52,770 bases of DNA from the NCBI GenBank assembly GCA_030612585.1, contig JAUWNP010000008.1, positions 1 to 52,770 on the forward strand, given 5' to 3'. The stretch's first letter is position 1; every line of letters starts with the position of its first letter. The position numbers and the translations under genes are program-made. Shown here one piece after another: positions 32,097-50,473 of this stretch. Source of the DNA: Anaerolineae bacterium. GTDB taxonomy: Bacteria; Chloroflexota; Anaerolineae; B4-G1. The notes beneath the pieces are model-generated. The model did no database searches. It worked only from the letters and a program-made list of their open reading frames with translations, and was not told where the DNA came from.

Positions 32097-32909
32097 CTAG
32101 GACGTCGGCTCAGTGACCGCACCCAGCAGTGCCCGCAGCCATTCCGCCAGTCGAACGTTGCGCTCCCCCCCGTCCGGCAGACCAATCACGTGATAGCCAC
32201 GCCGCTCCAGGTCATCCATCACGAATTCATCCACGTCAAAGGTAACCAGATACGGGCGACGTTGATGCCGGCCCAGATCAATGCTCAGTTGATCGTAGAT
32301 TTGGTTGAAGTCGGGATCGCTCACACTGTAGCCCATGAACAGGAAAGTCCTGGTCGCCAGCATGGCGTTGAGTTGCTGCATAAGGAGGGCGTTATTACGA
32401 TAGATGGTGTTGTAGTCCCGCTCTGTGATGATGAACGAGGCAGGACGGTCGTGGGTGCCGTGCAATTTTACCAGGTTCACCCGCGACGCGTCCCAGAATG
32501 ACAGGTCCGTCGCTCCTACCACCAGGTTGACCGGTCGTCCGGCTTTGCGGTAGGCCCGCTCCAGTAAGTCATCAAAATTGGTGGTGAACACGATATTGAC
32601 CGGTAGCCGAACGAGGAGATCGTGGTTCTCGGCCGGCTTTATACCCGTCGTATCCAGCCGGTCCCGCAGGTAGGAGATCAAGGCGTGCCGCCCCAAACGA
32701 TTCTCGTAGTATTGGGCAACTTTGAGCAGGTCGTCCCCCTCGTAGCCGATGCGCTCCGCCAGCGGGCGAATGAGTGCGCCCCAGCCAGGCAGGCCCGCAC
32801 CAACGGATAGGCCCGCGCCGATAAAAAGCACGACGTTGCCCTTCCTCATCTCCGCGCTCAGTTCCTGGGGGATAACAACTGAAGAGTACACTTCGCGAGT
32901 TGACGCCAT
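32097..32909 (-). CDS. Stand-alone SIR2-like protein (possible phage defence)
   Basis: A 270-aa SIR2_2-type protein. The NAD-binding FIGAGLSVGAGLPGWGALI, the VFTTNFDDLLERAY motif, the catalytic-histidine segment NLVKLHGTHDRPAS and the late GYSVSDPDF are present. Many stand-alone SIR2 domains of this kind are NADases that kill or stall phage-infected cells. No Argonaute, HerA helicase, TIR or other known partner lies next to it, so its role is open. I chose the ATG at 32909 with GGGAG upstream; a longer frame to 33152 would run through the promoter and a tandem repeat. It sits among toxin-antitoxin remnants. Confidence 0.85.
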   Translation of the reverse strand: MASTREVYSSVVIPQELSAEMRKGNVVLFIGAGLSVGAGLPGWGALIRPLAERIGYEGDDLLKVAQYYENRLGRHALISYLRDRLDTTGIKPAENHDLLVRLPVNIVFTTNFDDLLERAYRKAGRPVNLVVGATDLSFWDASRVNLVKLHGTHDRPASFIITERDYNTIYRNNALLMQQLNAMLATRTFLFMGYSVSDPDFNQIYDQLSIDLGRHQRRPYLVTFDVDEFVMDDLERRGYHVIGLPDGGERNVRLAEWLRALLGAVTEPTS

Positions 32910-33027
32910 CTCGTCTCCCGCATTTGGGGCAGATATCTCACCGAATCTGCCCAGTGCTTGCACTCCGCGCCAATCTGCGTCCGAGGAATCTCCGCGGGCC
33001 GCGCAAGTCCACCCAATGAGCAACACG

Positions 33028-33056
33028 ATTGTACACGAGGATAGCGGAAGTAGCAA
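33028..33056 (-). promoter_or_regulatory. Promoter of the SIR2 gene
   Basis: Minus strand TTGCTA (33051-33056), a 17-nt spacer and TACAAT (33028-33033). The leader would be about 110 nt. A CGTGAAA-type repeat tract begins 5 bp upstream. Confidence 0.65.
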
Positions 33057-33060
33057 TTCG

Positions 33061-33090
33061 ACGTGAAACGTGAAACGCCAAACGTCAGAT
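33061..33090. repeat. CGTGAAA-type heptamer tract upstream of the SIR2 promoter
   Basis: About four 7-bp units (CGTGAAA/CGCCAAA), same family as at 16379-16432, 38140-38167 and 51371-51417. Confidence 0.85.
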
Positions 33091-33207
33091 GTGATATCAT
33101 ACGGCATACGCCGTTGAATTCTCGCGTGGCGTGTGCCCTCGCTGGAGGCCAAGAAACCGTGGGCAAGAACCCCATTCGCTGGGGCGCGCCACTGCTCAAC
33201 AAACTAA

Positions 33208-33428: not shown

Positions 33429-36014
33429 TCAATATCCCTCCTCCATCTGCTCTGACAGCGGCACGAACTCCAGCCCAATCGGTTGCCCATCTCGATTTAC
33501 GTGCGGCTGCACCGACCCATCGCCCAACTGCGCGTGCAACTGCGCCAGTACGTAGTCGGCGCTCTCCGGCAGGAAGAACACGCGGCAGGCGTCGCCGCAC
33601 AGGGCGCGGAAATCGGCGCTGTGCACCTCCTCAGCCAGCACGCCGTGATACTCCACACCCAGGTCGAACTCGTCAATCCCCCACACCCGGAACTCCGGCG
33701 GGTAAGGCTCGTCCACGACGAACAGCACGTTGGAACCACGCTCCATCCTCTGCGCCGCCCAGAACATCACGTTCTCCAGATCCGGCACGTGCTGCTGTGG
33801 CATCACCACGAAGTAAGTGTGCAGACCCCAGAGCGCCAGCGCCACGGTCAGCACAACCCCGACCCAGTCAGCCCAACGGGGGTGCACAAACCGGCGCAGC
33901 AAATCACTCAGCAGCCAGATACCTGCCGCCGCCAGCACGGCCAGCGCGGGGATGACCGTCGCCATGTGCGCAGGGCGCGGCGGGAAGGTGTTGAGCACGC
34001 TGAGCAGGACCACACACACCAGCACCCACATTGCCCACAGCACAGCCGGCAACCGGCGGCATTGGCCCACTACCCAGGCCAGCCCGGCCAGGAAGAAGAT
34101 CGGAACCGGCCCCGCCAGTGGCCCCGCGAGATAGTGCTGCGTGGCAATCTCGCCCGTTACCAAACTCAACACCGTGCGCACCAGGCCACGCCCGAGCAGC
34201 AGCGCGTACAACCGGGGCTCAAAGAAAACCGATTGCCGCCCGAAGTGCCATAGCGGGTACAGCCGCGTGATCTCGGCCGTCGAGAAAATTGCCTTCCCAT
34301 AAAAGGCATTGCCAATGAAACTTTCCGGCACTTTCCAGCCCATTGGCTTACCACCCAACGCACAGCCAAGCAGGAATGGCCCGGCGGCGAAGAACCAGCC
34401 CAGCACCAGGCAGAGAGCCAGGCCAAGCAACATACGACGCAGCGGCCTGCGGCTGACGAAGAGAAACAGCCAGACCAGCATCACCAACAACAGACCCACG
34501 TGCCCGGACATGTAGGTGAGGGACGCCATCCCGCAAGCCACGCCGGCCAGGTAAGCCAACGTGCGGCTATGCCGCTGCACCGCCTCGACCAGCAACCACA
34601 GGCCCAACGTGATCGGCAGGAGTGGCTGAATGCTGTTGAAGCCTATACGCGCGTAGGCCAGGAAATAAGGCATGCCGGTCATCAGTACAACCGCAGACCA
34701 GGCCACCCGGGTGCCCAGCAACTTCCGCGCCAGGAAGAACAGTGGCACTACCGTAAGCGTCCCGGCCACCACTGACCCAAGCCGCCAGGCCCACACCGTA
34801 GGCCCGAACAGCCTGACCCATAGGCTCTGGTAGAGCGATCCGATCACAGGGAAAGCGCCGTATACACCCAAGTCAAAGGGGTTGGCACGCACCCCCTTCG
34901 CCAGGTCGCGCACCCACCACCAGAACGCCCCTTCGTCTCCCCACATGCTGTTCGGCACGTCGCCCAGGCGATAGAGCGTCAGGCCGAACGCGACCACCAG
35001 GCCAATGACCAATAACCAATGACCAATGACCAATGACCAATGACCAATGGCCAAGCGGGAAAAGGGTAACACACCCCGGGCGCGGTCTAGACGGTACCAG
35101 CAGATCGCCTGGACGGCCAAGGTGACCAGCCACAGCGGCACGACGGACCAACTGGTGGAACTCACCACCGCAGAGTACACCACACCCAGCCAGACCAGGT
35201 CCCCGACGAGCGCCAGCGCGAGCCAGGGCCACGAGGGACGTGAGGCGGCCCGCAGTACCGGCGCTTCACCACCGGGCGACGGCGCACCGGGTAGCCTGTC
35301 CACCCCACCTCTCGTCCAGGCGATCAGGATCATCCCCACACAGGACAGCATGAGCCCCACCGACCACACGTCCGGCGGCAACGGCACATCAACGCGCAGT
35401 TCGGCCAGGCCAGGCTGCAGCCAGCCACCGATAACTTGCAGCGGCCCAAGCGCGCCCGGCAATGCCAGCACCACCGCCCCTGCCAGCAGCAACAGCCAGC
35501 CGGTAATTGCCAGGGGGACCGCATGTCGCCTGGGCTGGACCACCTCGGCGCTGACTAGCGCAGGGATGGGCGCGCCCCTCACCTCTGGAGCGGGCCTGGG
35601 CTTCGGCCAGCGTGGCCGGGGGAAACGAACCCCCAATGCCACCACCCCTCCCGCCCACAGCGGCAAGACCACCAGCAAGCCCGCTGGCGGGGGAACCAGG
35701 AAAGCGGCCAGTGCAGCCAGCCCATTCGCCGTGGCCAAGACCGCGACCAGCGGGCGGGTCGCCCTCCACAGAAACAAGCCGCGCAGCAGTACGCCTGGCC
35801 GTCGCAGAGCGGGCCACGCGAGCGCCCAGGCGCGGTCGGGTCTCGCATCCACACTCCGCCAGGTCCACACCAGCAGCAGCGCCGCCACGACGTAGAACAG
35901 AGCAGCGTCCCAGACGTATATGCGCTGGTAGAGCAAGTAGTAGTGTCCCAGCCCGGCCAGCGCCAGCGCTGCGGCTAAAAGCACCAGCGAGGAGGATCGC
36001 TTACCCATTTCCAT
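33429..36014 (-). CDS. GT39-family (PMT-like) membrane glycosyltransferase
   Basis: An 861-aa polytopic membrane protein with about fifteen hydrophobic helices. After a membrane-rich N-terminal section comes the conserved first-loop acidic motif in MWGDEGAFWWWVRDL (about residue 355), typical of GT39/ArnT-type enzymes that use lipid-linked sugars, then the helical GT-C core (PLFFLARKLLGTRVAWSAVV, YFLAYARIGFNSIQPLLPIT). The C-terminal 120 residues form a soluble domain. A stretch LAIGHWSLVIGHWLLVIG just before the core is a translated heptamer repeat (35001-35053) that adds a hydrophobic segment. It is the last gene of the glycan operon; sugar and acceptor are unknown. Confidence 0.87.
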   Translation of the reverse strand: MEMGKRSSSLVLLAAALALAGLGHYYLLYQRIYVWDAALFYVVAALLLVWTWRSVDARPDRAWALAWPALRRPGVLLRGLFLWRATRPLVAVLATANGLAALAAFLVPPPAGLLVVLPLWAGGVVALGVRFPRPRWPKPRPAPEVRGAPIPALVSAEVVQPRRHAVPLAITGWLLLLAGAVVLALPGALGPLQVIGGWLQPGLAELRVDVPLPPDVWSVGLMLSCVGMILIAWTRGGVDRLPGAPSPGGEAPVLRAASRPSWPWLALALVGDLVWLGVVYSAVVSSTSWSVVPLWLVTLAVQAICWYRLDRARGVLPFSRLAIGHWSLVIGHWLLVIGLVVAFGLTLYRLGDVPNSMWGDEGAFWWWVRDLAKGVRANPFDLGVYGAFPVIGSLYQSLWVRLFGPTVWAWRLGSVVAGTLTVVPLFFLARKLLGTRVAWSAVVLMTGMPYFLAYARIGFNSIQPLLPITLGLWLLVEAVQRHSRTLAYLAGVACGMASLTYMSGHVGLLLVMLVWLFLFVSRRPLRRMLLGLALCLVLGWFFAAGPFLLGCALGGKPMGWKVPESFIGNAFYGKAIFSTAEITRLYPLWHFGRQSVFFEPRLYALLLGRGLVRTVLSLVTGEIATQHYLAGPLAGPVPIFFLAGLAWVVGQCRRLPAVLWAMWVLVCVVLLSVLNTFPPRPAHMATVIPALAVLAAAGIWLLSDLLRRFVHPRWADWVGVVLTVALALWGLHTYFVVMPQQHVPDLENVMFWAAQRMERGSNVLFVVDEPYPPEFRVWGIDEFDLGVEYHGVLAEEVHSADFRALCGDACRVFFLPESADYVLAQLHAQLGDGSVQPHVNRDGQPIGLEFVPLSEQMEEGY
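35001..35053. repeat. ACCAATG-type heptamer tract inside the GT39 gene
   Basis: About seven 7-bp units, translated on the minus strand as IGHWSLVIGHWLLVIG. The repeat itself creates membrane-like sequence. Confidence 0.88.
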
Positions 36015-36027
36015 TCCCGCCCTCCAC

Positions 36028-36927
36028 TCACACCTCCGGCTTGCGCGCCACGAAAAACAGGTACGCGCCTTGCTGGGGCAACGGTTCCTCGTAAAACGGT
36101 CGCATCAATCGCTCCACGAGCCACAGATGGGGCCGTGAGGGGTACAGTACCCAGCGCCCGGTCAGTTTCTTACACACCAGCGAGGGCAGCCCCAGGTAGT
36201 GACCCCACTCCAGGGCTGCCAACGCCCGGCGAGAGAAGTAGGGCCACCAGCGGACCAACTGCAACCCTGTAGCCTCCAATCGCCGCGCCCACACATCGGC
36301 CCCGTCACAATGGTAGTGCCGGGAGATGCGGTTGAAGAAGCGGCGGTACAGGTCGGCAAGTGGGCAAGTGGGCAAGTGGGCAAGTGGGCAAGTGGGCAAG
36401 TTTGCAGGTTTGCAGGTTTGTAAGTTTGCAGGTTTGCAAGTGCGCGAAGTTACGAGTTGCGTGCCACGCTGCCACAACCAGTCCAGCGCCCGTCCAATGG
36501 AGAGAAAGGGCAAGAAATTGGGGCCTGGCACACAGAAGTAGAAAAGACCATCCGGCCGTAGCACCCGAGCCACCTCCGCCAACACCGGCTGCACCCGCGG
36601 GATATGTTCCAGCACCGAGTTACTCACGACGGCTGCAAAGGTTTCGTCGGGGTAGGGCATCCGCGCCCCGTCGGCCTGAGCCAACAAGTGGTAGGCCCCG
36701 CGCTCGCGAGCCTCGGTCAGCGGCCCCCACCAGGGGTCAAAACCCGCCTCCAGCGGCTCATTGAAGGCGACCGAGGCGAAGTGCCCATCGCCGCAGCCCA
36801 GGTCGAGCACGGGACGAGGGAGAGGCAGGTCTGCGTAGAAGTGGGCCTCCACCGCCCGCAAGAGCGCCCGAAAAGCGGGTAAGTCGCGCAGGTGTCGCCA
36901 GAGCAGGTCGTCGTCCACGTCAATCAA
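36028..36927 (-). CDS. Class I SAM-dependent methyltransferase with repeat-derived loop
   Basis: A 299-aa methyltransferase. Motif I (PVLDLGCGDGHFASVAF, about residues 39-55), motif II/III (MPYPDETFAAVVSNSVLEHI) and VARVLRPDGLFYFCVPG are typical of the Methyltransf_11 group. A Cys/Pro/Leu-rich stretch (about residues 163-192: TCKPANLQTCKPANLPTCPL and onward) is a translated tandem repeat (36355-36443) inside the cap region. The start is a TTG at 36927 with GGAGG 5 nt upstream. It lies in the glycan operon between GT4 and GT39 and probably methylates a sugar. Confidence 0.88.
   Translation of the reverse strand: MIDVDDDLLWRHLRDLPAFRALLRAVEAHFYADLPLPRPVLDLGCGDGHFASVAFNEPLEAGFDPWWGPLTEARERGAYHLLAQADGARMPYPDETFAAVVSNSVLEHIPRVQPVLAEVARVLRPDGLFYFCVPGPNFLPFLSIGRALDWLWQRGTQLVTSRTCKPANLQTCKPANLPTCPLAHLPTCPLADLYRRFFNRISRHYHCDGADVWARRLEATGLQLVRWWPYFSRRALAALEWGHYLGLPSLVCKKLTGRWVLYPSRPHLWLVERLMRPFYEEPLPQQGAYLFFVARKPEV
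36355..36443. repeat. GGCAAGT / TTTGCAG heptamer tract inside the methyltransferase gene
   Basis: About 89 bp: roughly six GGCAAGT units followed by five TTTGCAG-type units. It is translated as TCPLAHLP and TCKPANLQ repeats. At 7 bp per unit, each slip would change the frame and truncate the protein. Confidence 0.9.
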
Positions 36928-38172: not shown

Positions 38173-40266
38173 CTAGGCGAACAATGAGCGGTTGGCGACG
38201 ATCCACTCGTAGAGCCAGCGGACGCCTTCCTCAACCCCTACGCGAGGCTGCCAGCCCAACTCGCGCCCGGATTTGCGAATGTCGGAGATGTAGATAGGTT
38301 GGTCGCCGGGGCGCCAATCATCGCCGGAGACGGGGATGGGATGGCCGATCAATCGCTCCAGGATCGGCCCAAACTCAGCCCACACCGACATCGTGTGCGC
38401 CGGTCCTCCGCCCACGTTGTACACCTGTCCGGCGGTGACGTCAATGTGGGCGATGGCGGCGTCGTAAGCATCGAGCAGGGCATCAATGAAAAGCACGTCG
38501 CGCACCTGCTTGCCGTTGCCGTAAATGGTGATGGGCTGGTCAGTGACGGCGGCGATGATGAACCAGGCCACCCATCCTTGATCCTCGACCCCCATCTGCC
38601 GTGGCCCATAGATGCATGACTGGCGAAAAACCACCGCCGGCAAGCCATAGATGCGGGTGTAGTCGCGCACGTATTGGTCACCAGCCCCCTTGGAGTTTCC
38701 GGAGAAGAAGGCATAACCATTTTGCCTCACCATTACAGTGGAATTGGGTACTTCCACACAGTAAACCATTCCGGCATATTCCACCCACTCGCTCCTATTT
38801 TGGCCCAGGTTGCATTGAGCAGTTCTGGTTGTACTAATATAAACGCGGTAATACCCCTCTTTGTCCAAAGTAACCGATGATGCCATTCCACACTTGATCG
38901 CAATTTCCTGAACATCATCTGCCAATTTCTGCGAAACGGTTGTGTATCTCCAGCCGTGTTTGCTGTGCTTATTGCCATCACCATCCAGCAAAGATTTCAG
39001 CAAAACAGCAAGTTTTTTTCGATCAAGGCGCTTAATCTCCTGCGGAATGTATTTGCCGTGGCTTTTGCCAAACAATTTGACATACTCGTACAACTGACGG
39101 GACGTTGCTGTGATATGATGCTGATCTATCACAGGCGATAGGCCAATGGCTTGCATCACAGCGATTGCCTCTTCAGTTCGACTATAAGTGGTTAATGTCA
39201 CCGTGCAATTACCGGTTTTCTGATTTTCATAACAATGACCTTCTGAGATATACCAGCCCAAAAATCTCAACCAATCATCCATCGGGATCGCGCGTGCAAG
39301 GAAGCGATGTTTATGCTTTCCAGCTTTCACTTCAGGCAAGACAAAACACTCAGGTTTTTCTCCTCCATTGTAATCGGCAGCGAGAAGATAAGCCATTGGC
39401 TTTCCCTCAATTTGTCGAGCATCCAAAAGGCGCGGATTTTTCAATTCATCGTGATCGCAGTCCCAAGACACCAGCATTTTGTGATTGGGCGTCACACATG
39501 TCTTGAGACGACGGTTATTTTGTACGTACATTTTGCCGGTATAAGAATATGCAAAATGCTCTGTGGGTGTTTGATACTCAGCCACCTTTCGCTCAATGTT
39601 GTAGGTTAAAACCTGATCATTGGGGGTTAATTCGCAAAACTTTTTCCATCCCTTATCGGTGAGAATGTCAGTGTCGGCTGAATAACAACAGCCATAGGGC
39701 GAGTGAAAGTCGAGCGGCTGCGTCTCCGGGATGCCAAGTGGAAAGTCCCGGTAGGCGTAGCGAGTCTCCTGCTCTATCACCGCCACCTCTTCCATCCCAC
39801 CATAGACCTTGTTGGTGGAGGCATAGAGGAATATGGGATTGGTGCCCGCGTGCCGCGCCGCCTCCAGCGCGTTGAAAGTACCCAGTGCGTTGTCCTCGAA
39901 GTCAGAACGAGGGTCCGTAACCGAAGTGGTGACCGCCGTCTGCCCGGCCAGGTGCACGACGACACCGGTCCCTCGCGCCGCCTCGGCCAGCGTCTCGTAA
40001 TCGCGCACGTCGCCCACCACGAGCCGAAAACTGTCCGCACCGTGCAACTCGCGCAGCCAGGCCACGTTGGCTTCGGTTCCGCGGCGCGATAGGTTGTCGT
40101 ACAGCGTAACCTGCTCGCCCCGCGCCAGCAGCCGGTGGACGTAATTGCAGCCGATGAAGCCCGCTCCACCTGTGACGGTGAAGTGATGTCCTGCCACCGC
40201 GAGTACTCCACTGCGAGAGTACTCTCGTGGCAGGCGTGGCGGTGAGCCTGCCGAAGGATCGGTCAA
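38173..40266 (-). CDS. CDP-paratose 2-epimerase-like NAD-dependent epimerase, interrupted by an intein
   Basis: Short-chain dehydrogenase/epimerase that would convert CDP-paratose to CDP-tyvelose or act on a related sugar nucleotide. The 697-aa precursor has the NAD motif TGGAGFIGCNYVHRLL (about 32-47), LYASTNKVYGG (148-157), and after the intein SKGAGDQYVRDYTRIYGLPA, RQSCIYGPRQMGVEDQGW and YGNGKQVRDVLFIDALLDAY, which fit the paratose epimerase group closely. The catalytic Tyr191 and Lys526 of YGC-SK are separated by a 331-aa intein (194-524), so activity needs splicing; the mature enzyme has 366 aa. The TTG at 40266 has AAGGAG upstream. The first 23 residues come from palindromic repeat DNA (40199-40262); the original start may have been near the GTG at 40197. 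Confidence 0.92.
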   Translation of the reverse strand: MTDPSAGSPPRLPREYSRSGVLAVAGHHFTVTGGAGFIGCNYVHRLLARGEQVTLYDNLSRRGTEANVAWLRELHGADSFRLVVGDVRDYETLAEAARGTGVVVHLAGQTAVTTSVTDPRSDFEDNALGTFNALEAARHAGTNPIFLYASTNKVYGGMEEVAVIEQETRYAYRDFPLGIPETQPLDFHSPYGCCYSADTDILTDKGWKKFCELTPNDQVLTYNIERKVAEYQTPTEHFAYSYTGKMYVQNNRRLKTCVTPNHKMLVSWDCDHDELKNPRLLDARQIEGKPMAYLLAADYNGGEKPECFVLPEVKAGKHKHRFLARAIPMDDWLRFLGWYISEGHCYENQKTGNCTVTLTTYSRTEEAIAVMQAIGLSPVIDQHHITATSRQLYEYVKLFGKSHGKYIPQEIKRLDRKKLAVLLKSLLDGDGNKHSKHGWRYTTVSQKLADDVQEIAIKCGMASSVTLDKEGYYRVYISTTRTAQCNLGQNRSEWVEYAGMVYCVEVPNSTVMVRQNGYAFFSGNSKGAGDQYVRDYTRIYGLPAVVFRQSCIYGPRQMGVEDQGWVAWFIIAAVTDQPITIYGNGKQVRDVLFIDALLDAYDAAIAHIDVTAGQVYNVGGGPAHTMSVWAEFGPILERLIGHPIPVSGDDWRPGDQPIYISDIRKSGRELGWQPRVGVEEGVRWLYEWIVANRSLFA
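38695..39687 (-). mobile_element. Intein with LAGLIDADG homing endonuclease domain
   Basis: A 331-aa intein. It begins with C1 (CYSADTDILTDKGWKKF, block A), has a block B TPNHKMLVS with its conserved His, two LAGLIDADG-type motifs (LRFLGWYISEG and LLKSLLDGDGN), block F (VYCVEVPNSTVMVRQNG) and ends FFSGN before Ser+1. The penultimate residue is Gly instead of the usual His; a -GN end with VPNxTxxVRxNG is known from phage-type inteins. Removing it restores YGC-SKGAGDQYV exactly. The DNA is clearly richer in A+T than its surroundings, which points to recent transfer. Confidence 0.95.
40199..40262. repeat. Palindromic elements at the 5' end of the epimerase gene
   Basis: Two GAGTACTC palindromes about 14 bp apart, then a GAGCCTGCCGAAGGATC element. 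They encode the unusual first residues of the epimerase and separate the Shine-Dalgarno site from the conserved coding region. Confidence 0.6.
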
Positions 40267-46253: not shown

Positions 46254-46403
46254 ATGTCTGGAGAATGGCTCACAGCCAATTTACAGCCACGGCACGCACG
46301 GGGAGATAACACTGCTCCCCGCTCACGCCGTTTTCCCCGACCTTTGGACGGGTGTCCAAAGGTCTTTTTTTATGTCACACCAACAGGAGGAAGACATGCC
46401 TAA
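46254..46403 (+). CDS. Putative pyr leader peptide spanning the attenuator
   Basis: A 49-codon frame starts with an ATG one or two bases after the predicted transcription start, runs through the pause hairpin and the terminator, and stops at a TAA 5 bp inside pyrB (MSGEWLTANL ... FFYVTPTGGRHA). In enteric bacteria pyrBI is controlled by such a leader peptide: when UTP is low, RNA polymerase pauses, the ribosome catches up and prevents the terminator. The same layout is present here. Translation would have to be leaderless. It could be a chance frame. Confidence 0.5.
   Translation: MSGEWLTANLQPRHARGDNTAPRSRRFPRPLDGCPKVFFYVTPTGGRHA
46299..46321 (+). promoter_or_regulatory. Possible pause hairpin in the pyr leader
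   Basis: CGGGGAG and CTCCCCG form a perfect 7-bp stem with a 9-nt loop, followed at 46331 by a TTTT run, 18 nt before the terminator stem. Confidence 0.55.
46339..46371 (+). terminator. Attenuator of the pyr operon
   Basis: GACCTTTGGAC (46339-46349), loop GGGT and GTCCAAAGGTC (46354-46364) form a perfect 11-bp stem followed by seven T residues. It lies between the pyr promoter and pyrB with no complete gene in between, so it must act as an attenuator. Confidence 0.92.
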
Positions 46404-47317
46404 TCCACTAGCAGGGCGGGACATCACCGCCATCGGCGACCTCAGCAAAGAGGAGATTGTGCTGATCTTGGAGCAAGCAGCACGATTCGAAGACTGGTGC
46501 CAGGAAGAGCCAAAACTGGACTTGCTGCACGGTCGCGTCCTCGCTACTCTGTTCTACGAGCCCAGCACACGCACGCGCCTCAGTTTCGAGGCCGCTATGC
46601 ACCGGCTGGGCGGCGACGTGATCTCCGTCGCGGAGGCGGCGAAGAGTTCCTCTGCCGCCAAAGGAGAGACACTGGCCGACGCTGCGCGTGTCATATCCGG
46701 CTACGCCGACGTCATCGTCCAGCGCCACCCGGCGGCCGGCTCGGCGCAGGAGGCAGCCGCAGGCGCGACGGTCCCGCTCATCAACGCCGGAGACGGCATG
46801 GGCGAGCACCCCACCCAGGCATTGCTCGACCTCTACACCATCCAGCGCGAACGAGGCCAAATAGATGGGTTGCGGGTTGGGCTGGCCGGAGACCTTAAGC
46901 ATGGCCGCACCGTCCACTCGCTCTCCCGCGCGCTGGCCCACTGGGACGTCACGCTCACCCTCATCTCACCCCCGGCGCTGGCACTGCCCGCGGCGATCAC
47001 CAATGGGCTGCGGCAGCAGGGGCTCACACTGCACGAGACCAGCAACTTGGCGGCCGCGATGCCAACGTGCGACGTGCTCTACGTCACCCGCATCCAACGC
47101 GAGCGATTCGGCGATCCGGCCGAGTACGAGCGGCTGCGGGGAAGTTACGTCGTAGACCGGGCGCTGGTCGAGCGCACCAATCCCGACGTCACCATCATGC
47201 ACCCGCTGCCACGTGTGGACGAGATCGCGACCGACGTAGACAACCTGCCCGGCGCGGCCTACTTCCGTCAGGCCGCCAATGGGGTGTGGGTGCGGATGGC
47301 GGTGTTGGTTAGTGTGG

Positions 47318-47328
<11 letters not shown>
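46396..47328 (+). CDS. pyrB: Aspartate carbamoyltransferase catalytic chain
   Basis: Joins carbamoyl phosphate and aspartate, the first committed step of pyrimidine synthesis. The 310-aa protein has the carbamoyl-phosphate loop FYEPSTRTRLSF (S57-T-R-T-R61), the second active-site loop with K (EAAKSSSAAKGETL), GDGMGEHPTQALLDLYTI and HPLPRVDEI, all intact. The ATG at 46396 has AGGAGG 4 nt upstream; an ATG at 46372 in the T-run of the attenuator is not credible. The last residues (VLVSVVVG) come from the tandem repeat that follows. No pyrI regulatory gene is present. Confidence 0.96.
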
Positions 47329-47396
<68 letters not shown>

Positions 47397-47405
47397 GAGG
47401 ATGGA

Positions 47406-47931
47406 ATGGCATACCAGGACATTGAAGAGTCGCGGATGTACAATCGGGCTGAGCAACTGGCCGATGAAATATGGGAAACGGTGGTCTCCTGGCAGCCCTT
47501 TGCGCGGGACACCTTAGGCAAGCAACTGACCAGAGCGACTGACTCGATTGGGGCCAACATCGCCGAAAGCACCGGGCGCTTTCACCCCAGGGATGTAATC
47601 AACTTCCTGTATTACGCTCGCGGTTCCCTCAAAGAGACCCGCTATTGGCTTCGCCGCGCCATTCGTCGCACACTCACCACACAAGAACAATTCGTATCTT
47701 CTCAATACCTTGGGGCAAGGGCAGCGTAGGGCGGTTTTGCTAACCGCCACAGGGTCGGATAGCAAATCCGACCTACTTTCGCCCCAACTTTTTGAGAAGA
47801 TACCACAATTCGACCATTGGATAAACGAACTCACCCAACTAGCCAAGGAGATCAATGCCTACATCGGCTATCAGCGCAAACGCATCGTCAAAGAACCCCC
47901 CACCCCCTATACCATCTCTACCAATGAATAG
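47406..47931 (+). pseudogene. Four-helix bundle (23S rRNA intervening-sequence type) protein gene, interrupted
   Basis: The first part (47406-47729) codes YNRAEQLADEIWETVVSWQP, LTRATDSIGANIAESTGRFH and FLYYARGSLKETRYWLRRAI, typical of the four-helix bundle family (GANIAEG, RGSLxETxYWL). The normal C-terminus (LTQLAKEINAYIGYQRKRIV) follows in a different frame up to a stop at 47931. Between them lies a palindromic insertion (47695-47804) that breaks the frame. The first part may still make a shortened protein. The gene ends 8 bp inside pyrF and is an intruder in the pyr operon. Confidence 0.8.
47695..47804. repeat. Palindromic element inserted in the four-helix bundle gene
   Basis: Outer inverted repeats GTATCTTCTCAA / TTGAGAAGATAC, then TTGGGGC / GCCCCAA, enclose two hairpins: GGCGGTTTTGCTAACCGCC (47731-47749) and GTCGGATAGCAAATCCGAC (47755-47773), bordered by GTAGG and CCTAC. 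The structure is that of a small non-autonomous (REP- or MITE-like) element. Confidence 0.8.
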
Positions 47932-48901
47932 CCAACAAACAGACCAACAAACCAACAAACAAACAAACCACCTAACCACCAAACTAACCACCGCCCAACA
48001 AACCAACAACTCCTGGCTGTGCATCGGCCTCGACCCCGTGATGGATAGGCTGCCCGACGCCGTCAGAGGCTCCGAGAGCCCACTGCTCGCCTTCGGCCGC
48101 GCCATCGTCGAGGCCACCGCCGACCTGGCCTGCGCCTACAAGCCCAACCTGGGCTTCTGGCTGGCCGAGGGACCCGCGGGCCTGCGTGCACTTCAGGACC
48201 TCATCGCCTCCATCCCCGGCCACCTGCCCGTCATCCTCGACGCCAAGTTCAACGACGTGGGGCATACTGCCGCCGCCTACGCCCGCGCCGCGTTCGAGAC
48301 ACTGGGCGTGGATGCGGTCACAGCCAACCCATACCTGGGGCTGGATGCACTGCGCCCGTTCCTTACCAGCGAAGAGCATGGCATCTTCCTCCTGGCCCGC
48401 ACTTCCAACCCCTCTGCCCCGGACCTGCAGGACCTGCGAGTGAACCAGTCTGAAAGACATCACACGCTGGATGGGCGAGTGCACCGGCCTGAAAGAGCCG
48501 GTGCTGGGTCGGGAATCAGCCCAGCACCGCCTGTTTGCCCAACACCGCCTGTTTACGGCAGTGCGCTCTATGAAGAGGTCGCCCGGCTGGCGGTACAGTG
48601 GGACGCCGAGCATCCGGGCAGTTGCGGCCTGGTCGTCGGGGCCACGTACCCTGAAGAACTGGCTCGCCTACGGGAGATTGCCCCCGCTCTGCCGTTCCTC
48701 ATCCCCGGTGTCGGAGCGCAGGGGGGGAGCCTGGAAGCAGCAGTCACGCACGGCCCCACCAATGGCGGCATCGGCCCGGTCATCAACTCCTCGCGCTCCA
48801 TCCTCTACGCCTCCTCAGGCCCCGACTTCGCCAAAGCCGCCCGCGCCGCCGCATTGGCCCTGCGCAACCAAATCAACCAATTCCGGGAGGCAACCAGATG
48901 A
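47924..48901 (+). CDS. pyrF: Orotidine 5'-phosphate decarboxylase (type 2), with repeat insertions
   Basis: Converts OMP to UMP. The 325-aa protein shows WLCIGLDPVMDRLP, YKPNLGFWLAEG, the catalytic D106-x-K108-x-x-D111 in LDAKFNDVGHTAAAYARAAF, TANPYLGLDALRPFL and PFLIPGVGAQGG, as in the type 2 family. The first 30 residues are Gln/Asn/Thr-rich and come from a tandem repeat (47932-48010). Residues about 171-212 are an extra loop made by a palindromic element (48440-48560) placed between the PYLG region and LYEEVARLA; the frame is kept. The ATG at 47924 overlaps the end of the previous gene; pyrE overlaps the stop in an ATGA. Confidence 0.94.
   Translation: MNSQQTDQQTNKQTNHLTTKLTTAQQTNNSWLCIGLDPVMDRLPDAVRGSESPLLAFGRAIVEATADLACAYKPNLGFWLAEGPAGLRALQDLIASIPGHLPVILDAKFNDVGHTAAAYARAAFETLGVDAVTANPYLGLDALRPFLTSEEHGIFLLARTSNPSAPDLQDLRVNQSERHHTLDGRVHRPERAGAGSGISPAPPVCPTPPVYGSALYEEVARLAVQWDAEHPGSCGLVVGATYPEELARLREIAPALPFLIPGVGAQGGSLEAAVTHGPTNGGIGPVINSSRSILYASSGPDFAKAARAAALALRNQINQFREATR
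47932..48010. repeat. ACCAACAA-type tandem tract at the 5' end of pyrF
   Basis: Degenerate AACCAACA/AACAAACC units, the complement of the GTTGGTTA family. They encode the Gln/Asn/Thr-rich N-terminus of PyrF. Either an added tail or a replacement of the original start. Confidence 0.85.
48440..48560. repeat. Palindromic insertion inside pyrF
   Basis: Contains GCACCGGC-CTGAAAGA-GCCGGTGC (48481-48504) and two CAGCACCGCCTGTTT-like copies (48523-48555). It is related to the element in the GT39 gene at 44778-44826. Confidence 0.75.
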
Positions 48902-49485
48902 CCCAACTAACCAACCAACTATTCACCCACGGCTGCGTCCAGTTCGGCACCTTCACCCTCAAATCTGGCCTCACCTCTCCCATCTACATTGACCTGCGGC
49001 TGCTGGTGAGCCACCCGCCGCTGCTGCGCCAGGTGGCCCAGGCGATGGCCGAGGTCGCCCGCGGGCTCGAGTGCGACCGTTTCGCCGCCATCCCCTACGC
49101 AGGCCTGCCCATCGGGGTGGCACTGGCGCTGGAAATGAACCGCCCGCTGATCTACCCGCGCCAGGAGGTCAAGGCGCACGGCACCCGCCGCGCCATCGAG
49201 GGAGCCTTCGAGCCAGGAGAAACAGTGCTGCTGGTAGACGACCTGATCACGCGGGGCGACAGCAAACTGGAGGCCACCCGGCCGCTGGAGGCAGCCGGGC
49301 TCATCGTGCGCGACGTGCTGGTGCTGATAGATCGGGAACAGGGGGGCGCGGAGGACCTGTCCAGACATGGTTACCGGCTGCACGCCGTCCTGACCCTTAC
49401 CCAGGTCTTGGACGTGCTGAAAGAAAGTACCTATATCACGCCGGCCCAATGCGCCGAAGTGCTGGCCTATCTTCGGGATTCGTAG
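48898..49485 (+). CDS. pyrE: Orotate phosphoribosyltransferase
   Basis: Transfers phosphoribose from PRPP to orotate. The 195-aa protein has FTLKSGLTSPIYIDLRLLVS, IPYAGLPIGVALALEMNRPLIYPR and the PRPP-binding loop VLLVDDLITRGDSKLEA, all typical. The ATG overlaps the pyrF stop in ATGA, so the two are translationally coupled, in keeping with their sequential reactions. After the stop comes a 55-bp repeat tract before pyrD. Confidence 0.96.
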   Translation: MTQLTNQLFTHGCVQFGTFTLKSGLTSPIYIDLRLLVSHPPLLRQVAQAMAEVARGLECDRFAAIPYAGLPIGVALALEMNRPLIYPRQEVKAHGTRRAIEGAFEPGETVLLVDDLITRGDSKLEATRPLEAAGLIVRDVLVLIDREQGGAEDLSRHGYRLHAVLTLTQVLDVLKESTYITPAQCAEVLAYLRDS

Positions 49486-49540
49486 ATTCGTGGGTTCGTA
49501 GATTCGCAATTCGTAAATTCGTAAATTCGTAGATTCGGGT
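49482..49540. repeat. GTAGATTC-type tandem tract between pyrE and pyrD
   Basis: Degenerate 8-bp units (GTAGATTC/GTAAATTC/GTGGGTTC) fill the whole gap up to the pyrD ATG. No Shine-Dalgarno site is left in front of pyrD apart from a weak CGGGT. Confidence 0.88.
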
Positions 49541-50473
49541 ATGAATGAGCCTGACCTGACCGTCAATCTGTGCGGGGTCACCCTGCCCAATCCCACAGTT
49601 CTCGCCGCTGGCATACTCGGCCTGAGCCACGAGATACTGGTGCGGGTGGTGAGGGCTGGCGCAGGGGCCGTCACCACCAAATCGTGCAGCCTCAAGCCCC
49701 GCCCCGGCTACCCGAACCCGACGATCCTGGATTGGGGACCGGGTCTGATCAACGCCGTGGGTCTCTCCAACCCGGGCGTCGAGGTGATGGTGGAGGAGAT
49801 ACAGGCTGCCAGGGAGCAACTGGCACCACTAGGAGTGCCGGTCATCGCCAGTATCTTCGCCGAGACCATCTATGACTTCGGCACCGTGGCCCGCTTCATC
49901 TCCGAAGCGGAACCCGACCTCATCGAGGTCAACATCTCCTGCCCCAACATAGACGACCGCTACCGGCTTATGTTCGCCGCCGATCCCTACGTCGCATCTC
50001 AGGTCACGCGCCGGGTGAAGCAGAACACCGACGTCCCGGTGCTGGTGAAACTCTCGCCCAACGTGACCGACGTCGTGGAAATCGCACAAGCGGTGGTGGA
50101 GGCCGGCGCGGACGGCATCACCGCCATCAATAGCCTGGGGCCGGGGCTGATTCTGGACGTGGAGACCTGCCGCCCGGTGCTATCCCACGAGACCGGCGGC
50201 GTGAGCGGCCCGGCCATACGCCCCATCGCCGTGCGCTGCGTGCGCGACTTGTGCCGGGCGGTGGACGTGCCGGTGGTAGCGATGGGCGGAGTGACGACCG
50301 GGCGGGACGTGGTGGAGATGATCCTGGTGGGAGCCACCGCCGTCGGCATTGGCTCAGCCATCCACTACCGGGGGATGGAGGTCTTCCGGGAGGTGTGCGA
50401 GGGACTGCGGGATTATATGGAGCGGCACGGGTATGGTGGGTTGGAGGAGTTTCGGAAGAGGGCGGTGGGGTAA
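49541..50473 (+). CDS. pyrD: Dihydroorotate dehydrogenase, class 1B catalytic subunit
   Basis: Oxidises dihydroorotate to orotate using FMN and passes electrons to PyrK. The 310-aa protein has VNLCGVTLPNPTVLAAGILG, LKPRPGYPNPTILDWGPGLI, the catalytic cysteine in EVNISCPNIDD (class 1 use Cys), LVKLSPNVTDVVEIAQAVVE and VVAMGGVTTGRDVVEMILVGATAVGIGSA. The neighbouring pyrK shows it is class 1B, NAD-linked. The start is the ATG at 49541. Confidence 0.96.
   Translation: MNEPDLTVNLCGVTLPNPTVLAAGILGLSHEILVRVVRAGAGAVTTKSCSLKPRPGYPNPTILDWGPGLINAVGLSNPGVEVMVEEIQAAREQLAPLGVPVIASIFAETIYDFGTVARFISEAEPDLIEVNISCPNIDDRYRLMFAADPYVASQVTRRVKQNTDVPVLVKLSPNVTDVVEIAQAVVEAGADGITAINSLGPGLILDVETCRPVLSHETGGVSGPAIRPIAVRCVRDLCRAVDVPVVAMGGVTTGRDVVEMILVGATAVGIGSAIHYRGMEVFREVCEGLRDYMERHGYGGLEEFRKRAVG

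Follow-up and report, generated by a model that had tools for sequence, protein, structure and literature searches.

A probable class 1 intein inside the YxxxK motif of a CDP-tyvelose 2-epimerase-like enzyme from an Anaerolineae bacterium, and its relatives in other sugar-nucleotide enzymes

Inteins generally insert at conserved or active sites (PMC2814812, PMC7765530). The mycobacteriophage inteins of the Bethlehem recombination directionality factor (RDF) gp51 and of the cluster C1 nucleotidyltransferase 'NT' are class 1 inteins at active-centre sites, and the RDF intein has a penultimate Gly, splices rapidly and is slowed when this Gly is changed to His (PMC5050341). The AceL NrdHF intein (PDB: 6zgq) is split, lacks both Cys1 and a homing endonuclease domain, and splices by a demonstrated class 3 mechanism (PMC7891396). 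An intein of a sugar-nucleotide enzyme is also listed, the 'udp' intein of UDP-glucose 6-dehydrogenase from halobacteria and methanogens (PMC4071816). Here we describe an intein encoded in a stretch of 52,770 nucleotides from an Anaerolineae bacterium (assembly GCA_030612585.1, contig JAUWNP010000008.1, positions 1 to 52,770; hereafter the window), which lies inside the YxxxK motif of an extended short-chain dehydrogenase/reductase (SDR) resembling CDP-tyvelose (CDP-paratose) 2-epimerases.

The mycobacteriophage inteins, whose hosts act in phage DNA metabolism, are about 28% identical to the window intein; among its best-listed phage matches are nucleotidyltransferase-annotated genes (27-28% identity over 331 amino acids) and a Gordonia phage terminase. 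AceL NrdHF is the best mini-intein structural match and is alike in block B (SPNHRM versus TPNHKM in the window), in the Cys at F:4 and in the lack of both assisting histidines. The endonuclease-bearing inteins TliVMA (PDB: 7qsu) and PI-PkoII (PDB: 2cw7) show 17-20% identity and have other hosts. The 'udp' intein, found in another enzyme family and at another site, is likened to the window intein by its host only, not by sequence.

A literature search found, among the papers listed, no description of an intein in an SDR or sugar-nucleotide epimerase, a weak absence, as most subscription journals lay outside the search. InBase holds the Ter NDSE-1 and NDSE-2 inteins of a Trichodesmium nucleoside-diphosphate-sugar epimerase, a name that did not appear in the intein literature search. 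The host of these is presumably a sugar-nucleotide SDR, and they may match the inteins of the cyanobacterial UDP-glucuronate decarboxylases L034, L053 and L076 (family checked for L053). These three differ in site from the window intein: they lie at ^CYDEGKR, one residue before the catalytic Tyr, and not at Y-x-x^S-K (the caret marks the insertion point). L034 and L076 also have an extra insertion after RIFN (SLTGDQKV...), resembling a second intein.

Intein, exteins and host enzyme

The window gene encodes, with a probability that we put at roughly 0.9, a full-length class 1 intein that separates the catalytic Tyr from the catalytic Lys in an enzyme resembling CDP-tyvelose 2-epimerases and whose LAGLIDADG endonuclease seems intact. 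A first-pass annotation, made from the sequence alone, had set its borders at precursor residues 194-524, and both these and the position inside YxxxK were borne out. Tyr191 and Lys526, the catalytic pair expected of an SDR, are separated by 335 residues in the precursor and by four once the intein is removed. Removal also restores an unbroken enzyme match, a check that the annotation had proposed: the joined exteins score 171.7 bits in a single stretch against the dTDP-glucose dehydratase model (precursor, 154.5 bits in two stretches) and 161.5 bits against GDP_Man_Dehyd (precursor, 138.6 bits). The closest solved relatives of the host are the CDP-tyvelose 2-epimerases 9rl0 (E 9.2e-96) and 1orr (E 4.3e-81), followed by an entry at E 2.8e-38, in agreement with the CDP-paratose 2-epimerase-like identity first given to it; none of the listed NCBIfam equivalogs scores above its cut-off. 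By its sequence the host is CDP-tyvelose (CDP-paratose) 2-epimerase-like, with a putative CDP-sugar substrate.

Intein-free alleles, also anticipated, were found in all 120 listed nearest relatives of the spliced enzyme (up to 92% identical), and their empty site reads YGCSK in 116 and YGNSK in four, which shows that the insertion is precise and in frame. The intein is AT-rich in relation to its host gene, as first noted: its GC content is 44.6% (46.2% at third codon positions, GC3), against 63.9% (GC3 74.1%) in the N-extein, 62.1% (GC3 78.2%) in the C-extein and 62.3% in the whole window.

The AlphaFold model of the intein (predicted local distance difference test, pLDDT, 95.8) shows a Hint plus LAGLIDADG fold, and its Foldseek and VIA structure matches are inteins. 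Two LAGLIDADG motifs (FLGWYISEG and LLKSLLDGDG) are present as annotated, and the intein alone matches the PF14528 LAGLIDADG_3 model with 33.2 bits (cut-off 22.5). Cys1, Thr66, His69, Gly330 and Asn331 are invariant across 113 aligned inteins, window included, all of which were selected for a Ser or Thr at +1 of the C-terminal junction. In 112 of them SKG or SKA directly follows the intein.

In the wider lineage, Cys1 and penultimate Gly are present in 99 of 99 inteins and the F:4 Cys in 96; Cys is the second commonest F:4 residue among inteins (PMC4031507). Furthermore, 77 of the best 80 of 486 viral relatives end in GN. The annotated SGN end without penultimate His and the phage-type C-terminal block, described as block F, agree with these data, and by its sequence the intein falls in a large phage-related lineage characterised by Cys1, a Cys at F:4 and a Gly where the assisting penultimate His would stand. 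More than 100 natural alleles of this kind would be useful for the study of Asn cyclisation without assisting histidines, and lineage alleles are possible protein-ligation tools.

Ordinary class 1 splicing is expected: the gene shows Cys1, a block B TxxH, Asn331 followed by Ser+1, a Hint fold and a precise in-frame insertion, class 3 is excluded by definition, and the Gly-bearing Bethlehem RDF intein splices. The precursor would fold and the intein would excise itself through a Cys1 thioester, a Ser+1 branch and Asn331 cyclisation, while ligation of the exteins would give back the epimerase its PYGCSKG sequence, so that enzyme activity would depend on splicing. The endonuclease would cut intein-free alleles at about TATGGNTGT^TCCAAGG, and repair would copy the intein in.

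Distribution, mobility and alternative readings

A survey of intein homologues found 558 similar proteins, of which 120 were listed. Of these, 112 have the whole insert at the position seen in the window and in an epimerase of the same kind; the remaining eight are three fragments with the same C-terminal junction and five proteins with other hosts or sites. Listed homologues with an organism name belong to Anaerolineae and other Chloroflexota. A 99%-identical intein occurs in protein P0002, from another public contig, which together with the 112 same-place inserts rules out an assembly artefact.

Eight of the 113 intein-bearing proteins exceed 1000 residues owing to a second intein, located in six at RQS^C[IL][YF]G and in two near HxAAQ/TTMV, as read by eye. 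The six (P0045, P0069, P0105, P0106, P0113 and P0117) show a second intein of another kind, and PF14890 is listed for five of them. Genomes G028 and G299, whose epimerase match is broken near this site, perhaps have it too. In P0113 and P0117 the first intein is cut down to 294 and 254 residues, with most of the loss in the endonuclease part. The two others (P0035 and P0055) have another second intein near HxAAQ...TTMV, in the N-terminal half of the epimerase.

The distribution within the phylum is sporadic. In a sample of 400 genomes centred on G003 and including it, the host gene was found in 109 (E <= 1e-60) and a lineage intein in five (E <= 1e-20), and the only YGC-type match identified is that of G003 itself. 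The others are G120 (L099), with an intein at YHL^SK of a sulfoquinovose-synthase-like gene, a site homologous to the YGC^SK of the window; G216 (L102), whose match covers the C-terminal half alone; L100, in another host; and L101. A class sample of 396 genomes contained nothing beyond the four seed genomes.

Intein and extein histories are incongruent. After removal of 10 of the 113 sequences (fragments, double, degenerate or distant), intein and extein distances of the remaining 103 are weakly correlated (Spearman 0.29; 1 of 500 permutations as high), and P0018 and P0010 share 88% intein identity with 55% extein identity. Conservation is similar in the endonuclease part and in the N-terminal splicing part. 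In the extein tree, with 107 intein-bearing genes (six of 113 removed as fragments or for a second intein in the N-extein) and 120 empty ones, intein presence changes state seven times, at least four on starred branches; as the two gene sets come from different searches, this is no estimate of gain and loss. The junction reads TGT^TCC in five of the five intein-bearing alleles with DNA and in three of 30 empty alleles (Fisher p 1.7e-4, relatedness uncorrected); two of the empty alleles code for Val in place of Cys. On account of sporadic presence, incongruence and target bias, a mobile intein with a working endonuclease fits better than a fixed regulator.

Several observations weigh against a mobile class 1 intein. 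The splicing-domain models PF14890 (E 0.046, 14.0 bits, curated cut-off 35.8) and TIGR01445 (E 0.03, 15.3 bits, cut-off 24.5) stay below threshold in the model search that the annotation had proposed. The intein has no penultimate His, and no His is visible in block F. A second, intein-free copy of the host gene may be present in the same cell as the window gene; the genomes of L006-L009 contain no close copy besides the split gene, their other matches (E <= 1e-30) showing 32-35% identity. The TGT^TCC comparison covers few alleles and is suggestive only, and no YGC-type phage was found among the matches listed, where the best viral relatives are 34% and 37% identical. A curated hidden Markov model match and a penultimate His are usual, not defining, criteria for a class 1 intein. 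Because the splicing-domain models are sub-threshold, what identifies the insert as an intein is its predicted fold and its profile match to solved inteins, along with conserved catalytic residues and the existence of empty alleles.

The missing penultimate His would also suit a dead insertion, in which splicing has been lost and the gene has become a pseudogene. However, the frame is open, Cys1 and Asn331 are invariant, the 113 inteins all have the Ser/Thr junction by which they were picked, 112 with its SKG or SKA reading, and a penultimate Gly is compatible with rapid splicing in the Bethlehem RDF intein (PMC5050341), which makes this explanation highly improbable. An insert belonging to the epimerase fold itself has a negligible probability: it is refuted by its absence from all 120 listed closest relatives of the spliced enzyme, and its own fold is Hint plus LAGLIDADG. 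A class 3 or hybrid mechanism, with a first attack by Cys310 (F:4) instead of Cys1, is unlikely and the assignment was rejected, since class 3 is defined by a lack of Cys1 together with a W-C-T triad (PMC7891396, PMC5222942), whereas Cys1 is invariant here and the corresponding window residues, positioned by eye against AceL NrdHF, are Met71 (N3:12), Cys310 and Ser329 (C1:5). We give slightly less credence still to conditional splicing, in which the intein would act as a regulatory switch on glycan synthesis, with a disulfide between Cys(-1) and Cys1 as one conceivable trigger. Redox-sensitive inteins are published (PMC8557812, PMC6195587), and 112 of the 113 aligned alleles, the window one among them, have Cys(-1) next to Cys1; but Cys(-1) belongs to the host, 116 of 120 intein-free relatives having it too, the intein is sporadic (the seed genome alone among 400), unlike a regulator kept by descent, and nothing in these data supports such a switch.

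Relatives in other sugar-nucleotide enzymes and in phages

A scan of reference genomes with a 12-intein alignment found 238 relatives, of which the best 80 were kept. According to motifs, 33 of these 80 have sugar-nucleotide SDR hosts, although the query was itself an SDR intein and the fraction is not an unbiased host frequency. The 33 sites are four YGC^SK, four YH[QL]^SK, six directly before TMGEYG, one RYFN^CYGPRQ, and 18 immediately ahead of CYDEGKR (or CYDESKR, CYDEAKR), one residue before the catalytic Tyr. Among the 80, the YGC type is limited to L006-L009, from Chloroflexota and 72-76% identical. The remaining 47 hosts, named by eye, are 16 MCM, nine PHP-like proteins and 22 others, and L025 (Desulfonema magnum) is a ribonucleotide-reductase-like gene with apparently several inteins in one frame.

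Host assignments of the 33 SDR loci and of the MCM and PHP hosts were made by motif and eye, and family checks of L018, L029, L053, L099, P0118 and P0120 agree with the motif calls. L053 is a UDP-glucuronate decarboxylase (E 2e-138), and the other five are UDP-sulfoquinovose synthase-like (NF041015, under the equivalog cut-off). L018 matches SQD1 (PDB: 1qrr) with E 1e-62, and the intein of L099 lies exactly between NF041015 profile positions 184 and 185. In the SQD1 alignment, the Thr of TMGEYG is 37 residues ahead of the Tyr of FYHLSK, the same spacing as between Thr145 and Tyr182, which we take to be the catalytic residues of SQD1. As the spacing matches, the catalytic Thr would double as the intein +1 nucleophile in TMGEYG-site genes.

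Sugar-nucleotide SDR hosts are thus recurrent in the intein lineage, and the insertion points cluster around the catalytic Thr, Tyr and Lys, residues whose motifs the lineage has entered time and again. The first-pass annotation had called the host unusual and knew of no described case. Neither claim held: the insert recurs in 112 of the 120 listed homologues, sugar-nucleotide SDRs are the largest host class among the nearest reference-genome relatives kept, so that inteins in glycan-precursor enzymes are no freaks, and the 'udp' entry in PMC4071816 is a precedent among sugar-nucleotide enzymes. The rarity was overstated, and the window intein is a new allele and site in a known kind. What deserves attention is the pattern across the lineage and the apparent crossing between paralogues, rather than the window gene alone.

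In a quick tree of 99 inteins, from which L002 and L045 were dropped for unsure C-terminal borders, halobacterial YHQ^SK inteins group with the YGC type (97, SH-like approximate likelihood ratio test). A careful tree of 55 inteins places YGC^SK, YG[AC]^S and sulfoquinovose-synthase-like YHx^SK inteins in one clade (97/85). With 12 viral inteins added (67 inteins), the halobacterial ones lose their place (35/51) and the wider group collapses, while P0118 stays sister to all tyvelose-epimerase-like inteins (97/91). With L099 also added (68 inteins), a clade of 24 inteins with SDR hosts only has support of 99/98: 14 hosts are tyvelose-epimerase-like and 10 sulfoquinovose-synthase-like. Within it, the 14 join P0118 (97/93) and then three halobacterial inteins (98/83), and L099 and the viral L136, both YHx^SK, join TMGEYG-site sulfoquinovose-synthase inteins (98/87). 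The best 68-row tree does not unite the 20 Y-x-x^S-K inteins, and a tree that forces them together is not rejected (approximately unbiased test, p 0.157). The two K[LM]G^TMGEYG groups stay apart in the 55- and 68-row trees, and support for the cross-family clade shifts with the rows included across the 55-, 67- and 68-row trees.

On the strength of the 68-row tree, we lean slightly towards a crossing in which an SDR-specialised, phage-related clade passed from UDP-sulfoquinovose synthase-like to CDP-tyvelose-epimerase-like genes at homologous Y-x-x^S-K codons, probably ferried by phage glycan genes. The direction follows from the nesting of the tyvelose-epimerase inteins among the sulfoquinovose-synthase ones, seen from outside the clade. 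One phylum holds both host types with a Y-x-x^S-K intein (L006-L009 on one side; L099 and, by its C-terminal half, L102 on the other). Elsewhere, the lineage takes the catalytic Thr as +1 (^TMGEYG) or adjoins the catalytic Tyr, one residue before it (^CYDEGKR). The target DNA of the two gene families has 10 of 24 core bases in common (window versus L016, L018 and L019), which points to an infrequent event or to relaxed recognition of the target.

Phage glycan genes could plausibly have served as the vehicle. On viral contig L136, the YHA^SK host adjoins a head-tail adaptor gene and two glycosyltransferases; on L145, a UDP-glucuronate decarboxylase with ^CYDEGKR adjoins a RuvC-like resolvase, with the same host and site on L144; and on L151, TMGEYG^TPN adjoins Sak4-like and dCMP-deaminase genes, with the same host and site on L156. 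Phage records gave 124 matches to the intein, all below 60% identity, and plasmid records two weak ones. Paralogous enzymes with common catalytic codons offer a concrete system for host-gene switching by a homing intein, and for the question of a phage ferry.

Feature map and gene neighbourhood

Table 1. Coordinates of the intein-bearing gene and its parts in the window
Feature	Position	Strand	Remarks
Whole precursor gene	38173..40266	(-)	CDP-tyvelose/CDP-paratose 2-epimerase-like extended SDR with intein; 697 aa, TTG start, AAAGGAG upstream
N-extein	39688..40266	(-)	193 aa, C-terminal end DFHSPYGC
Catalytic Tyr of YxxxK	39694..39696	(-)	Residue 191, intein position -3; aligned to YGCSK of 9rl0; role presumed
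Intein	38695..39687	(-)	331 aa, Cys1 to Asn331, precursor residues 194-524
Block B, TPNH (Thr66-His69)	39481..39492	(-)	T66 and H69 in 113/113 aligned inteins
LAGLIDADG homing-endonuclease domain	38797..39333	(-)	Intein residues 119-297; approximate limits, set by eye
First LAGLIDADG motif, FLGWYISEGH	39235..39264	(-)	Acid E149, kept in 109/113
Second LAGLIDADG motif, LLKSLLDGDG	38974..39003	(-)	Acid D237, kept in 106/113
Block F, VYCVEVPNSTVMVRQNG	38716..38766	(-)	Cys310 at F:4 (position set by eye); C310 in 111/113
Block G, YAFFSGN and Ser+1	38692..38715	(-)	Penultimate Gly330 replaces His; G330 and N331 in 113/113
C-extein	38173..38694	(-)	173 aa and stop, first residues SKGAGDQY
Ser+1 nucleophile	38692..38694	(-)	First C-extein residue
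Catalytic Lys of YxxxK	38689..38691	(-)	Residue 526, intein position +2; aligned to YGCSK of 9rl0; role presumed

The neighbours of the intein gene encode a GT4 glycosyltransferase, a methyltransferase, two PMT-type transferases and an LPG-synthase-like membrane protein, a predicted content that fits a glycan function. Short in-frame repeats resembling expanded DNA repeats are found in a methyltransferase (CKPANLQTCKPANLPTCPLAHLPTC; 36028-36927, minus strand) and in a PMT-type transferase (IGHWSLVIGHWLLVIG; 33429-36014, minus strand). A pyrimidine-synthesis cluster at 46372-50473 (plus strand) contains aspartate/ornithine carbamoyltransferase, orotidine monophosphate (OMP) decarboxylase and dihydroorotate dehydrogenase. 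Furthermore, the window encodes a SIR2-like (SIR2_2) protein at 32097-33152 (minus strand), a domain common among phage defence genes.

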